Part shown: positions 29,879 through 32,734 of the stretch, piece by piece
How the letters are laid out: every line of letters starts with the position of its first letter
Position numbering within the stretch: the stretch's first letter is position 1
Source of the DNA: Actinomyces radicidentis
GTDB lineage: Bacteria > Actinomycetota > Actinomycetes > Actinomycetales > Actinomycetaceae
NCBI RefSeq assembly: GCF_001553565.1
Contig: NZ_CP014228.1
Span: forward strand, 1,922,001-1,986,000
DNA length: 64,000 nt
Direction: 5' to 3'
The notes under the pieces: model-generated
What the model was told of the DNA's origin: nothing
Database searches by the model: none
Seen by the model: only the letters and a program-made list of their open reading frames with translations
Program-made: the position numbers and the translations under genes

Positions 29879-30457
29879 TCAGATGTAGATGGTCGGGTCG
29901 AGCATGAGCTCGGGGTCGACGCGCGGGTCGCGCACGCGCGCCGGGACGCCCACGCCCACGTGGTCGGCCGGCAGGTTCTTCACCAGCACGGCGTTCGCGC
30001 CGATCTTCGCGCCGTCCTCCACCGTCACCGGGCCGAGCACCTTCGCGCCCGTCCCGATCTGGACGTTGTTGCCGATGGTGGGGTGGCGCTTGCCGGGGTT
30101 CATCGACACGCCTCCGAGGGTGACGCCGTGGAAGATGAGGACGTCGTCGCCGACCTCCGCCGTCTCCCCGATGACGACGCCCATGCCGTGGTCGATGAAG
30201 AGCCGGTCCCCGATCTTCGCCGCCGGGTGGATCTCGATGCCGGTGGCGCTCCGGGCGGCCTGGGACAGGGCTCGCGCCGCGAAGGTGTGCCCGTTGCTCC
30301 AGAGCTTGTGGGCGGCGCGGTAGGCCCACAAGGCGTGCACGCCCGGGTAGAGGAGCGCGACCTCGGCGCTCGACCGCGCCGCGGGGTCCCGCTTGCGGGC
30401 GGTGGCGAGGTCCTCGCGGGCGAGGTCGAGGAAGGACCGGTTCTTCTTCTGGGGCAT
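29879..30457 (-). CDS. cysE: Serine O-acetyltransferase
   Basis: A 192-aa enzyme making O-acetylserine from serine and acetyl-CoA, the substrate of CysK. The left-handed β-helix hexapeptide repeats run from about residue 72 ([44 protein letters not shown]) to about 165, with catalytic His residues in [12 protein letters not shown] and IFHGVTLGG. The short N-terminal helical region makes it an EpsC/short-type SAT. AGGAG precedes the ATG. It lies downstream of cysK on the same strand, separated by a terminator. Confidence 0.95.
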
Positions 30458-30605: not shown

Positions 30606-31532
30606 TCAGTTGAGGTACTCGGAGTACAGGGGGGTGGACAGGTAGCGCTCGCCGGTGTCGGGGAGGACCGTGACGATGGTCTTGCCCTCGAGCTCGGGAC
30701 GCTGGGACAGCTGGTCCGCGGCGGCCAGGGCGGCACCGGAGGAGATGCCCACAAGGAGGCCCTCCTCCTTCGCGGTGCGGCGGGCGTAGACGAGCGCGTC
30801 GTCGGAGGTGATGTGGAGCAGCTCGTCCCAGACGGACTGGTCGAGCACGTCCGGCACCACGTTCGGGCCGAGGCCCTGGATCTTGTGCGGTCCGGCGTTG
30901 CCCTCGGAGAGCAGCGGGGACTCGGCCGGCTCGACGCCGTAGACCTTGACGCCGGGGACCTGCTCGCGCAGGACCTGGCCGACGCCGGTGAGGGTGCCGC
31001 CGGTGCCGATGCCGGCGACGAAGACGTCGACCTTGCCGTCGGTGGCCTCGAGGATCTCGCGGGCGGTGGTCTCGCGGTGGACGCGCGGGTTGGCCTCGTT
31101 GGTGAACTGGGAGGCGAGGATCGAGTTCGGCGTGGCCGCCTGGATCTCCTCGGCCTTCTTGACGGCCCCGGCGACGCCGCCCTCGGAGGTGAGGACGAGC
31201 TCGGCGCCGAAGGCGCGCATGATCGCGCGGCGCTCCTTGGACATGGTCTCGGGCATCGTGATGATGACCTTGTAGCCGAGGGCCGCACCGACCATCGACA
31301 GGCCGACGCCGGTGTTGCCGGAGGTGGCCTCGATGATGGTGCCGCCGGGCTTGAGGGCGCCGGACTCCTCCGCCGCGCGGACGATGGACAGGGCGATGCG
31401 GTCCTTGACGGAGCCGGCGGGCTCGAAGGCCTCGACCTTCGCCAGGACGGTGGCGGGGCCGGAGATGACGCGGTTGATCTTGACGAGCGGGGTGCCGCCG
31501 ACGGCCTCGGTGATGTCGTTCAGGTAAGCCAT
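30606..31532 (-). CDS. cysK: Cysteine synthase A (O-acetylserine sulfhydrylase)
   Basis: A 308-aa PLP enzyme forming cysteine from O-acetylserine and sulfide. The PLP lysine is in EPAGSVKDRIALSIV (about residue 44), the substrate loop in ATSGNTGVGLS (about 71) and the phosphate-binding loop in GIGTGGTLTGVG (about 178). The ATG at 31530-31532 gives the family start AYLNDITEAVGGTPL; the longer upstream frame is not conserved. It is preceded by a 270-nt leader with a cysteine-rich upstream peptide. Confidence 0.96.
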   Translation of the reverse strand: MAYLNDITEAVGGTPLVKINRVISGPATVLAKVEAFEPAGSVKDRIALSIVRAAEESGALKPGGTIIEATSGNTGVGLSMVGAALGYKVIITMPETMSKERRAIMRAFGAELVLTSEGGVAGAVKKAEEIQAATPNSILASQFTNEANPRVHRETTAREILEATDGKVDVFVAGIGTGGTLTGVGQVLREQVPGVKVYGVEPAESPLLSEGNAGPHKIQGLGPNVVPDVLDQSVWDELLHITSDDALVYARRTAKEEGLLVGISSGAALAAADQLSQRPELEGKTIVTVLPDTGERYLSTPLYSEYLN

Positions 31533-31802
31533 GATGAGTCTCCTCGTGGATGATCCCGGTGCGGCTGCGGGCGGCGGCCGCTGGGCTGGTGATTGAGGTG
31601 GTCCGGTGCCGGCCCGGTGGGGTCCGGCGCTGACGGATCGCGTCCGTCGGTGCGTGGGCGGGTGGGAGACGGTCGGGCGCCGCCTGCGTCTGCTGGGAGC
31701 CAGAGAACGGTCAGGGCCTGGTGCGGAGGACCGGGGGTGCGTCCCACCCCGAGCGCCGGGCATGCGCGCAGCGACGCGCGCACAGTGTCAAGGCCAGGCG
31801 CC
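31533..31802 (-). promoter_or_regulatory. cysK leader region with hairpins after the Cys-rich peptide
   Basis: This 270-nt stretch runs from the leader peptide stop to cysK. Right after the peptide stop are a 7-bp hairpin (31763-31782, arms TGCGCGC/GCGCGCA) and a 6-bp hairpin (31735-31751, GGGGTG/CACCCC). Such structures are where ribosome position on the leader peptide could change termination or access to downstream RNA. A TTGACA occurs on the minus strand near 31786-31791, but no -10 follows at 17 bp. Confidence 0.45.
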
Positions 31803-31859
31803 CTATCGACACTGACAGCAGGAGCAGGACATCGCACGCATGAGGCTCGTAGCCATCAT
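31803..31859 (-). CDS. Cysteine-rich leader peptide upstream of cysK
   Basis: An 18-residue peptide, MMATSLMRAMSCSCCQCR, followed by TAG. Four of its last seven residues are cysteine (TGC, TGC, TGT, TGT). A good ribosome binding site (GAGGAG, then CACCCC) precedes the ATG. Poly-Cys upstream peptides that sense cysteine supply through ribosome pausing have been reported in mycobacteria, and streptomycetes carry similar leader peptides before sulfur genes. The position before cysK makes a cysteine-responsive role likely. Translation and mechanism here are inferred. Confidence 0.8.
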   Translation of the reverse strand: MMATSLMRAMSCSCCQCR

Positions 31860-32011
31860 GGGGTGCTCCTCTCCGCTGGAGGCCGCCGCGGTGGCGACCC
31901 GTCGCGGGAAGGTTAGCGCCGACGTCGTGGCGGACGTCAAGTTCCCGCGGCGAGGGTCACACCCTGAGACGGGAGGCGGGCGCCCGACGGCGGGGCCGGG
32001 TGGGAGCGTCG

Positions 32012-32734
32012 TCAGGCGGGAAGCTCGATGACCCGGGAGCCCGCGGGCTCCGGTGCGGCCGCGCCCTGGGTGAGCTGCGCGACCACCTCCGCGAGCAGGG
32101 CCGCGTCGTCGGCGTCCCCGGTGGTGACGAGGACGACGGCGTGGGTGGCGCCCCAGATCGTCTCCTCGACGTCGATCCCGCCGCCCGCGCCGCCGGAGAG
32201 CCCGCGCAGCTCCGCCTCGAGGCGGCCGGCGTCGGCGACCGGCACGCGCACGTCCCACAGGTCGCGCGCGGCGACCCGGACCCGCCCCGCGGCCTCGAGG
32301 GCCTGGGCCGCGGCCTCGGAGTAGGCGCGCACGAGCCCGCCGGTGCCGAGCAGGGTCCCGCCGAAGTAGCGGGTGACGACGACGGTGGTCGCGGTGAGGC
32401 CGCTGCCGCGCAGGACCTCGAGGATGGGCTGGCCCGCCGTGCCCGACGGCTCGCCGTCGTCGCTGGAGCGCTCGATCGGCTGGGCGCCGTCGACGGGCAC
32501 CGTGAAGGCGGAGCAGTGGTGGCGCGCCTCCGGGTGGGCGGACCGGACCGCGGCGATGAAGGCGCGGGCCTCCTCCTCGGTGTCGGTGCGGGCGGCGCGG
32601 GCGAGGAAGTGGGAGCGCTTGACCTCGAGGTCGGTCTCGGGCTGTTCCCCGCGTGCCAGCGCGAGGCGGGCTGCGGGCGCGGTCCCGGGGCCGGCGGCAC
32701 CGGTGGGGGAGGGGCTGGAGTCGGGCTGCGGCAT
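32012..32734 (-). CDS. IMPACT/YigZ-family protein
   Basis: A 240-aa protein. The UPF0029 signature region HHCSAFTVP...[21 protein letters not shown], followed by [23 protein letters not shown] (about residues 90-150), is characteristic of YigZ/IMPACT. A variable N-terminus and a DUF1949-like C-terminal half follow. In eukaryotes IMPACT regulates Gcn2; the bacterial role is unknown. The region between it and the cysK leader peptide (31860-32011) shows no gene. Confidence 0.9.

Follow-up and report, generated by a model that had tools for sequence, protein, structure and literature searches.

Does the short cysteine-rich reading frame in front of cysK, the cysteine synthase gene of Actinomyces radicidentis, control that gene, and if so, which part of its RNA would sense cysteine? 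The question came from an initial annotation of the window, a stretch of 64,000 nucleotides (contig NZ_CP014228.1 of assembly GCF_001553565.1, positions 1,922,001 to 1,986,000), which had read the frame as a leader peptide at which ribosomes stall when cysteine is low. The overall reading of a Cys-rich leader controlling cysK was supported by the sequence comparisons described here, and ribosome stalling at low cysteine would be the way in which cysK expression is raised.

The leader frame and its locus

An 18-codon frame with a ribosome binding site was confirmed on the minus strand, running from an ATG at 31859-31857 to a TAG at 31805-31803 (Table 1). As annotated, four of its final seven codons are Cys, the C-terminus reads ...SCSCCQCR, and the stop codon lies 270 nt before cysK, whose ATG is at 31532 rather than 31533, the start coordinate having been off by one. 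Cys codons in nine window genes were UGC in 12 of 12 cases. The nearest named cysK loci were 15 Actinomyces records, 14 with 83-88% protein identity and A. vulturis (L044) with 68%. In all 15 named Actinomyces loci, cysE follows cysK.

The motif TTGACN-N16-19-TANNNT matched once in the whole 64-kb window, against 0.13 matches expected, and this match is the predicted leader promoter. A match with equal spacing was present in 29 of the 47 Actinomyces loci carrying the hairpin described below, the other 18 giving no match, and a separate sigma-70 promoter scan found no promoter at the leader. The predicted -10 element ends 51 nt upstream of the leader ATG, and the frame has a Shine-Dalgarno sequence and a predicted 5' UTR. 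This refines the initial annotation, which had pointed to mycobacterial frames, since those are leaderless. The window peptide, padded with X, matched no family in NCBIfam, and longer leader peptides of relatives gave no match either (seven in NCBIfam, five in Pfam), profile HMMs being weak on peptides of such lengths.

Table 1. Features of the cysK leader and the genes behind it (positions within the window)
Feature	Position	Strand	Basis or remark
Leader peptide frame MMATSLMRAMSCSCCQCR	31803..31859	minus	18 codons + TAG, read from sequence
Shine-Dalgarno GGAGAGGAG of leader frame	31866..31874	minus	read from sequence
Predicted promoter TTGACG-N19-TAACCT	31910..31940	minus	consensus match only
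Penultimate codon UGU (Cys), proposed sensing codon	31809..31811	minus	
Conserved hairpin element, 5' base = G of stop codon	31751..31803	minus	covariation, fold
C-rich stretch between hairpin and cysK	31533..31750	minus	includes cysK Shine-Dalgarno GAGGAG, 31545-31540
cysK, cysteine synthase A	30606..31532	minus	TIGR01139, 419 bits (cutoff 351)
cysE, serine O-acetyltransferase	29879..30457	minus, behind cysK	TIGR01172, 233 bits (cutoff 211)

The hairpin behind the leader stop codon

The genus search covered 49 Actinomyces genomes, that of the window included, of which 48 gave a strong cysK match; the 49th (G037), which is 89% complete, gave none. The upstream frame had at least three Cys among its last 12 residues in 41 of the 48 cysK loci, and in six further loci (L007, L008, L011, L014, L017, L018) the leader ended with two Cys, as CxxC[R/L]. 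These counts, like all those over relatives, refer to species, which are not independent events. The peptide approximates M..VM[R/C]xMS..CCxC[R/L] in most of the genus. Its Cys codons off the penultimate position comprised 113 TGC and 29 TGT, a switching expected of a translated frame. Directly behind the Cys-ending frame, a hairpin was found in 47 of the 48 loci. Neither Cys frame nor hairpin was detected upstream of cysK in L122 (genome G047), the one remaining locus of the 48, or in L264 (genome G477), though close relatives of each carry both.

Two small hairpins had been noted behind the stop codon in the window. Structure was indeed found there, but both proved to be arms of a single nested hairpin. 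This conserved, stop-anchored element consists of the stems P1 (31803-31797/31757-31751), P2 (31795-31793/31761-31759) and P3 (31783-31776/31769-31762). The Actinomyces consensus is (G/A)GCGCC(A/U)GGC, internal loop, GUGCGCGC-loop-GCGCGCAU, GCC, GGCGCUC. A strict pattern of the hairpin matched once each in 41 of the 49 genus genomes and not at all when read backwards, and the covariance model R1 matched the window at 31812-31750. The sequence CAUGYGYG (Met-Arg/Cys codons, around VM[R/C]xMS), which can pair with the 3' arm of P3, is kept in most Actinomyces leaders and in this genus only.

The window hairpin folds with -33 kcal/mol at a z-score of -1.67, and 14 of 200 shuffles folded as well, so that the proof of the hairpin lies in its conservation and not in energy alone. 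It also formed within the fold of the entire 376-nt leader, and three relatives folded alongside the window gave stronger z-scores of -3.8, -5.1 and -5.6. Forty distinct Actinomyces sequences (repeats and L127 left out) were aligned with MAFFT; 99.6% of the cells were paired and both sides had changed at four of the 18 pairs, all of them in P3, a number reached by none of 500 shuffles. When 53 sequences were aligned to the model, both-side changes were found at 12 of the 18 pairs (57 cells), against at most 9 cells in slid versions and with none of 500 shuffles reaching it; this alignment is fitted to the structure, favours divergent rows and contains two opposite-strand matches. It took in 17 of the 47 Actinomyces loci, divergent ones included, together with 16 of 19 and 18 of 18 loci of two sets from the family. 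A mismatch-free stem of at least seven pairs from the G of the stop codon was present in 43 of 47 Actinomyces loci, in 19 of 19 and 14 of 18 loci of the family sets and in 16 of 16 Cellulomonadaceae loci, compared with 7-12% of shuffles. A chance Cys-rich frame without function, which one short frame taken alone, in a GC-rich genome and with a weak fold z-score, might have suggested, was refuted by this conservation and covariation, and its probability is next to nil.

Within the hairpin, P1 varied least. The loop strands and the base of P3 (GUGCG/CGCAU) were also largely conserved in sequence across the genera of the family, as might be the case if the hairpin bound a protein or a small molecule, with the leader peptide merely tuning it. 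In the Cellulomonadaceae set, however, the interior of the hairpin differs while P1, the UGU codon and the stop stay, and Rfam 15 holds no family for the element, the three matches up to E 10 in 31400-32100 being far below the gathering score and none of them on the element. Such a binding site is improbable in our judgement.

The hairpin led back to cysK when it was searched for without that gene, as all 49 matches fetched from other genera, apart from the weak or second ones described below, lie upstream of cysK and follow a Cys-ending frame. On 151 family genomes, a pattern tolerating either UGU or UGC was used; most of its matches look like chance, and the 19 chosen by eye in other genera as resembling the element all lie before cysK with a frame whose penultimate codon is Cys. 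A covariance model built from Actinomyces alone matched 73 of 200 family genomes at E 0.01 or better, a rough figure that includes some chance matches, and all 18 best-in-genome matches fetched from further genera (28-50 bits) lie between a Cys frame and cysK. The order-level pattern matched in 25 of 347 genomes, with 12 of 12 fetched matches preceding cysK behind a Cys-ending frame. These distribution counts are rough since patterns and model overlook variants. At class level, a pattern that misses variants matched in 25 of 394 genomes, where the stretches beyond the window's own look like chance by eye.

None of the eight weak or second model matches that were fetched (25-32 bits) lies before cysK. 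They were a candidate second copy in the genome (27 bits, G000:2863870, L239), the best match of G467 (L240) and six more weak or second matches of 26-32 bits (L270-L275), of which L272 (31.8 bits) comes from another genus. With such matches reaching about 32 bits, bits alone cannot tell true copies from chance near 30. L270 (G003:C4:71261-71298) and L271 (G004:C1:2393762-2393799) represent a similar GC-rich hairpin in two Actinomyces genomes, without Cys frame or cysK, which is perhaps an ordinary terminator.

The protein-similarity set comprised 65 cysK loci of other genera (L045-L110 without L060), of which 17 combined a frame carrying two or more Cys near its end with a stem of seven or more pairs from the stop G. 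These 17 were from Cellulomonas, Isoptericola, Sanguibacter, Flavimobilis, Georgenia and uncultured Cellulomonadaceae, and the same test found none among the loci named Agromyces, Leifsonia, Cryobacterium, Nocardioides and Rothia. Two Cellulosimicrobium loci (L074, L079) and one of Oerskovia (L088) had a Cys-rich frame before cysK without a stop-anchored hairpin, and may use a different output mechanism. Another locus, from an Actinomycetales MAG (L046), had before cysK a one-Cys leader ending GRCR, below the two-Cys threshold, and then a stop-anchored stem. The check proposed in the initial annotation, conservation of the Cys codons upstream of cysK in relatives, thus came out in its favour, with frame, Cys codons and cysK link kept throughout the genus and also in other families.

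The UGU codon and its distance from the hairpin

Two codons ahead of the stop slot, UGU stood in 100 of 100 loci from four sets, whereas the remaining Cys codons of the same leaders were 195 UGC and 69 UGU. L044 (identical to L127) and L063 (its stretch identical to L185) were left out of this set. The 47 Actinomyces loci of the count had been located by the hairpin alone, and the searches tolerant of UGC (the Cellulomonadaceae set and 25 order-level matches) yielded no codon but UGU beside the hairpin; a bias toward UGU is possible in the 19 pattern matches, which were chosen by eye, and in the 18 model matches, which came from a model containing UGU. One Cys-x-stop frame with UGC at the penultimate place was seen, in the Oerskovia locus L088, and it has no hairpin.

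The first base of the hairpin is the G of the UAG stop. This stop was lost in five loci (L119, L221, L230, L236, L238), which have CAG or AAG in the UAG slot, so that translation ends five codons on, inside the hairpin. The distance between UGU and hairpin was unchanged in all five, indicating that this spacing survives loss of the stop. In three other loci (L123, L126, L231), UGA follows immediately after UGU. A second in-frame stop five codons past the leader stop, inside the hairpin, was observed in 28 of the 100 loci (31803-31770 in the window, and relatives), compared with two and three loci having a stop within six codons in the other two frames.

Upstream Cys codons were not supported as the main sensor, because the number of Cys varies and the leader of L184 has a single Cys, namely UGU. 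We propose that the conserved sensor is this one UGU two codons ahead of the stop slot, rather than the number of Cys codons to which the initial annotation had drawn attention. As a reason for the UGU rule, base pairing between the UGU region and the interior of the hairpin (GACAC) was considered. The observed and shuffled pairings were 6.17 and 5.17 in Actinomyces and 5.38 and 4.77 in Cellulomonadaceae, with no excess in the two family sets, and this pairing does not explain all groups. The Cys motifs conserved within the genus might also reflect an action of the peptide itself, such as a metal or redox role for its Cys-rich sequence. Its length and N-terminal sequence vary between genera, however, L184 manages with one Cys, and such a peptide would have no need for a Cys fixed as UGU at a set distance from the hairpin; we give this explanation hardly any credence.

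Proposed mechanism and related systems

We read the element, with its frame, UGU codon, hairpin, fixed spacing and link to cysK, as probably an attenuator of the cysK-cysE operon that is mediated by the ribosome and responds to cysteine. A ribosome would translate the short leader and, when Cys-tRNA is scarce, wait with the penultimate UGU in its A site. There it would physically cover the base of the hairpin, which would not form, and RNA polymerase would proceed into cysK. When cysteine is plentiful, the ribosome would terminate and leave, the hairpin would form and expression would be cut. A ribosome covers about 12 nt beyond the A site, as known from toeprint practice, and with UGU in the A site this reach would correspond to the first four or five pairs of P1. 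With 30 nt around UGU blocked in the fold model, predicted pairing in the 5' arm of P1 fell from 0.89 to 0.06 in the 47 Actinomyces loci and from 0.99 to 0.14 in 16 other loci, a decrease that follows largely from geometry. The hairpin should be out of reach for a ribosome held at an upstream Cys codon, in agreement with the last Cys alone being fixed and with the one-Cys leader of L184. This limited reach also counts against the attenuator reading, as do the three loci with a Cys frame but no stop-anchored hairpin (L074, L079, L088) and the two with neither (L122, L264).

The output would most likely be transcription termination. In L190 (genome G442), the hairpin is followed by six U in the canonical layout of a terminator, which favours this output, and L190 is the only locus with six T in a row. 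Behind the hairpin, no U-tract was found in the window, and 91 of 100 loci had at most two T in the next 8 nt. A scan of 213 family genomes for the hairpin with T4 or more behind it found G442 only, the five other matches being other sequences by eye.

The U-tract missing from most loci would also suit Rho-dependent attenuation, in which the hairpin pauses RNA polymerase, Rho loads on the C-rich leader behind it and terminates transcription, and a stalled ribosome prevents the pause. Rho acting on the C-rich stretch is the main alternative for the output. The C and G fractions behind the hairpin were 0.44 and 0.26 in the 47 Actinomyces loci and 0.51 and 0.28 in the Cellulomonadaceae set, compared with the less skewed 0.38 and 0.33, and 0.37 and 0.35, of an upstream control stretch. 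Rho was also proposed for mycobacterial cys leaders in the available text of Seliverstov 2005 (PMC1262725). C richness is a weak sign, however, and the stretch between hairpin and cysK is about 40 nt in L236 and L238; we hold Rho to be an unlikely agent here.

The alternative of translational attenuation, in which the ribosome binding site of cysK stays masked by leader structure until a stalled ribosome frees it, was examined by fold prediction. This type of control is reported for mycobacterial cysteine leaders, as relayed in the available text of citing papers, the hairpin lies close to cysK in some relatives, and the predicted access of the cysK Shine-Dalgarno sequence in the window rose slightly, from 0.37 to 0.45. 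Against this, the median change with a stalled ribosome was +0.006 over the 47 loci and +0.009 over the 16, exceeding +0.1 in four and one loci and falling below -0.1 in two and one, respectively, and the hairpin is 110-279 nt from cysK in Actinomyces. By fold prediction only, unmasking of the cysK Shine-Dalgarno sequence was not supported in general, and translational attenuation appears quite unlikely.

No regular antiterminator was found among the sets examined. The longest pairing between the leader and the 3' half of the hairpin, observed and shuffled, was 8.15 and 6.36 in Actinomyces, 6.11 and 6.14, and 5.89 and 5.69, in the family sets, and 7.06 and 6.44 in Cellulomonadaceae. In L015, by eye, the 3' arm of P3 has changed without a matching change in the leader, which bears on the idea of an antiterminator formed by CAUGYGYG and that arm. 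We tentatively suggest, as a possibility rather than an expectation, that one wobble-read UGU at a fixed distance from a stop-nested hairpin may be the whole cysteine sensor, working by steric occlusion with no antiterminator and, in most species, with a hairpin that terminates despite lacking a U-tract, and would thus represent a minimal class of attenuator in one actinobacterial order.

In transcription attenuators of the trp type, regulatory codons in a leader peptide control the hairpin that follows; actinobacterial examples appear in the available text of Seliverstov 2005 (PMC1262725). The element shares with these the codons of the regulated amino acid in the leader and a GC-rich hairpin, and differs in that no conserved antiterminator was found and a U-tract is usually missing. 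For mycobacteria, Canestrari et al. 2020 reportedly described leaderless polycysteine short ORFs, which respond to cysteine and act on translation, and the same work may predict cysteine leaders widely in actinomycetes. That such polycysteine frames are cysteine-responsive is stated in the available text of papers citing it. The likeness lies in a frame with Cys codons before cysteine genes and in the stalling model. The mycobacterial frames are leaderless, whereas the present leader has a Shine-Dalgarno sequence, a predicted 5' UTR and a stop-anchored hairpin, with no general predicted Shine-Dalgarno unmasking; it was not classed with the mycobacterial polycysteine type because a leaderless start was not found.

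The uORFC-8-2 motif before cysS of Rhodobacterales, as described in the available text of its report (PMC8632094), carries its Cys codons in tandem within the first stem, most of them UGC, and has a U run in all cases. It resembles the present element in combining a leader frame containing Cys codons with conserved stems. As far as that text describes it, it differs in gene and phylum, the invariant UGU here lying ahead of the stem and a U run being mostly missing. The similar leaders that the initial annotation had placed before streptomycete sulfur genes were not borne out for S. lividans, none of whose eight leader peptides is called cysteine-dependent in the available text of that study (PMC8079986). 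The available text of Seliverstov 2005 (PMC1262725) predicts cysteine leader peptides for cys operons of Mycobacterium and P. acnes and for the B. longum gene cbs, in each case upstream; A. naeslundii is in its genome list and no Actinomyces cysteine leader is named. The Mycobacterium cys regions, according to the same text, had no conserved hairpins able to terminate, and other parts of an attenuator were missing (PMC1262725). The present leader agrees with those actinobacterial leaders in being a short frame that precedes a cysteine gene and has Cys codons close to its stop, and differs from the Mycobacterium cases by the covarying hairpin starting at the stop and the invariant UGU. No published report of this stop-anchored cysK element was found in the open-access literature searched, nor in Rfam 15.

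The pair of frame and hairpin before cysK, judged from sequence, is most likely a cysteine-starvation switch kept in many related bacteria. In part of one actinobacterial order, it supplies a conserved RNA part of the kind reported missing from cysteine leaders in 2005. It suggests that a single codon in a set position is the sensor, so that a direct test is possible by exchanging UGU for UGC or altering the codon spacing, and it offers a natural set of hairpins without U-tract for studying termination in GC-rich bacteria. The covariance model can be used to annotate cysK leaders overlooked by gene callers. As a kind, the actinobacterial cysteine leader peptide is already known; what is new is the conserved stop-anchored hairpin together with the invariant UGU.
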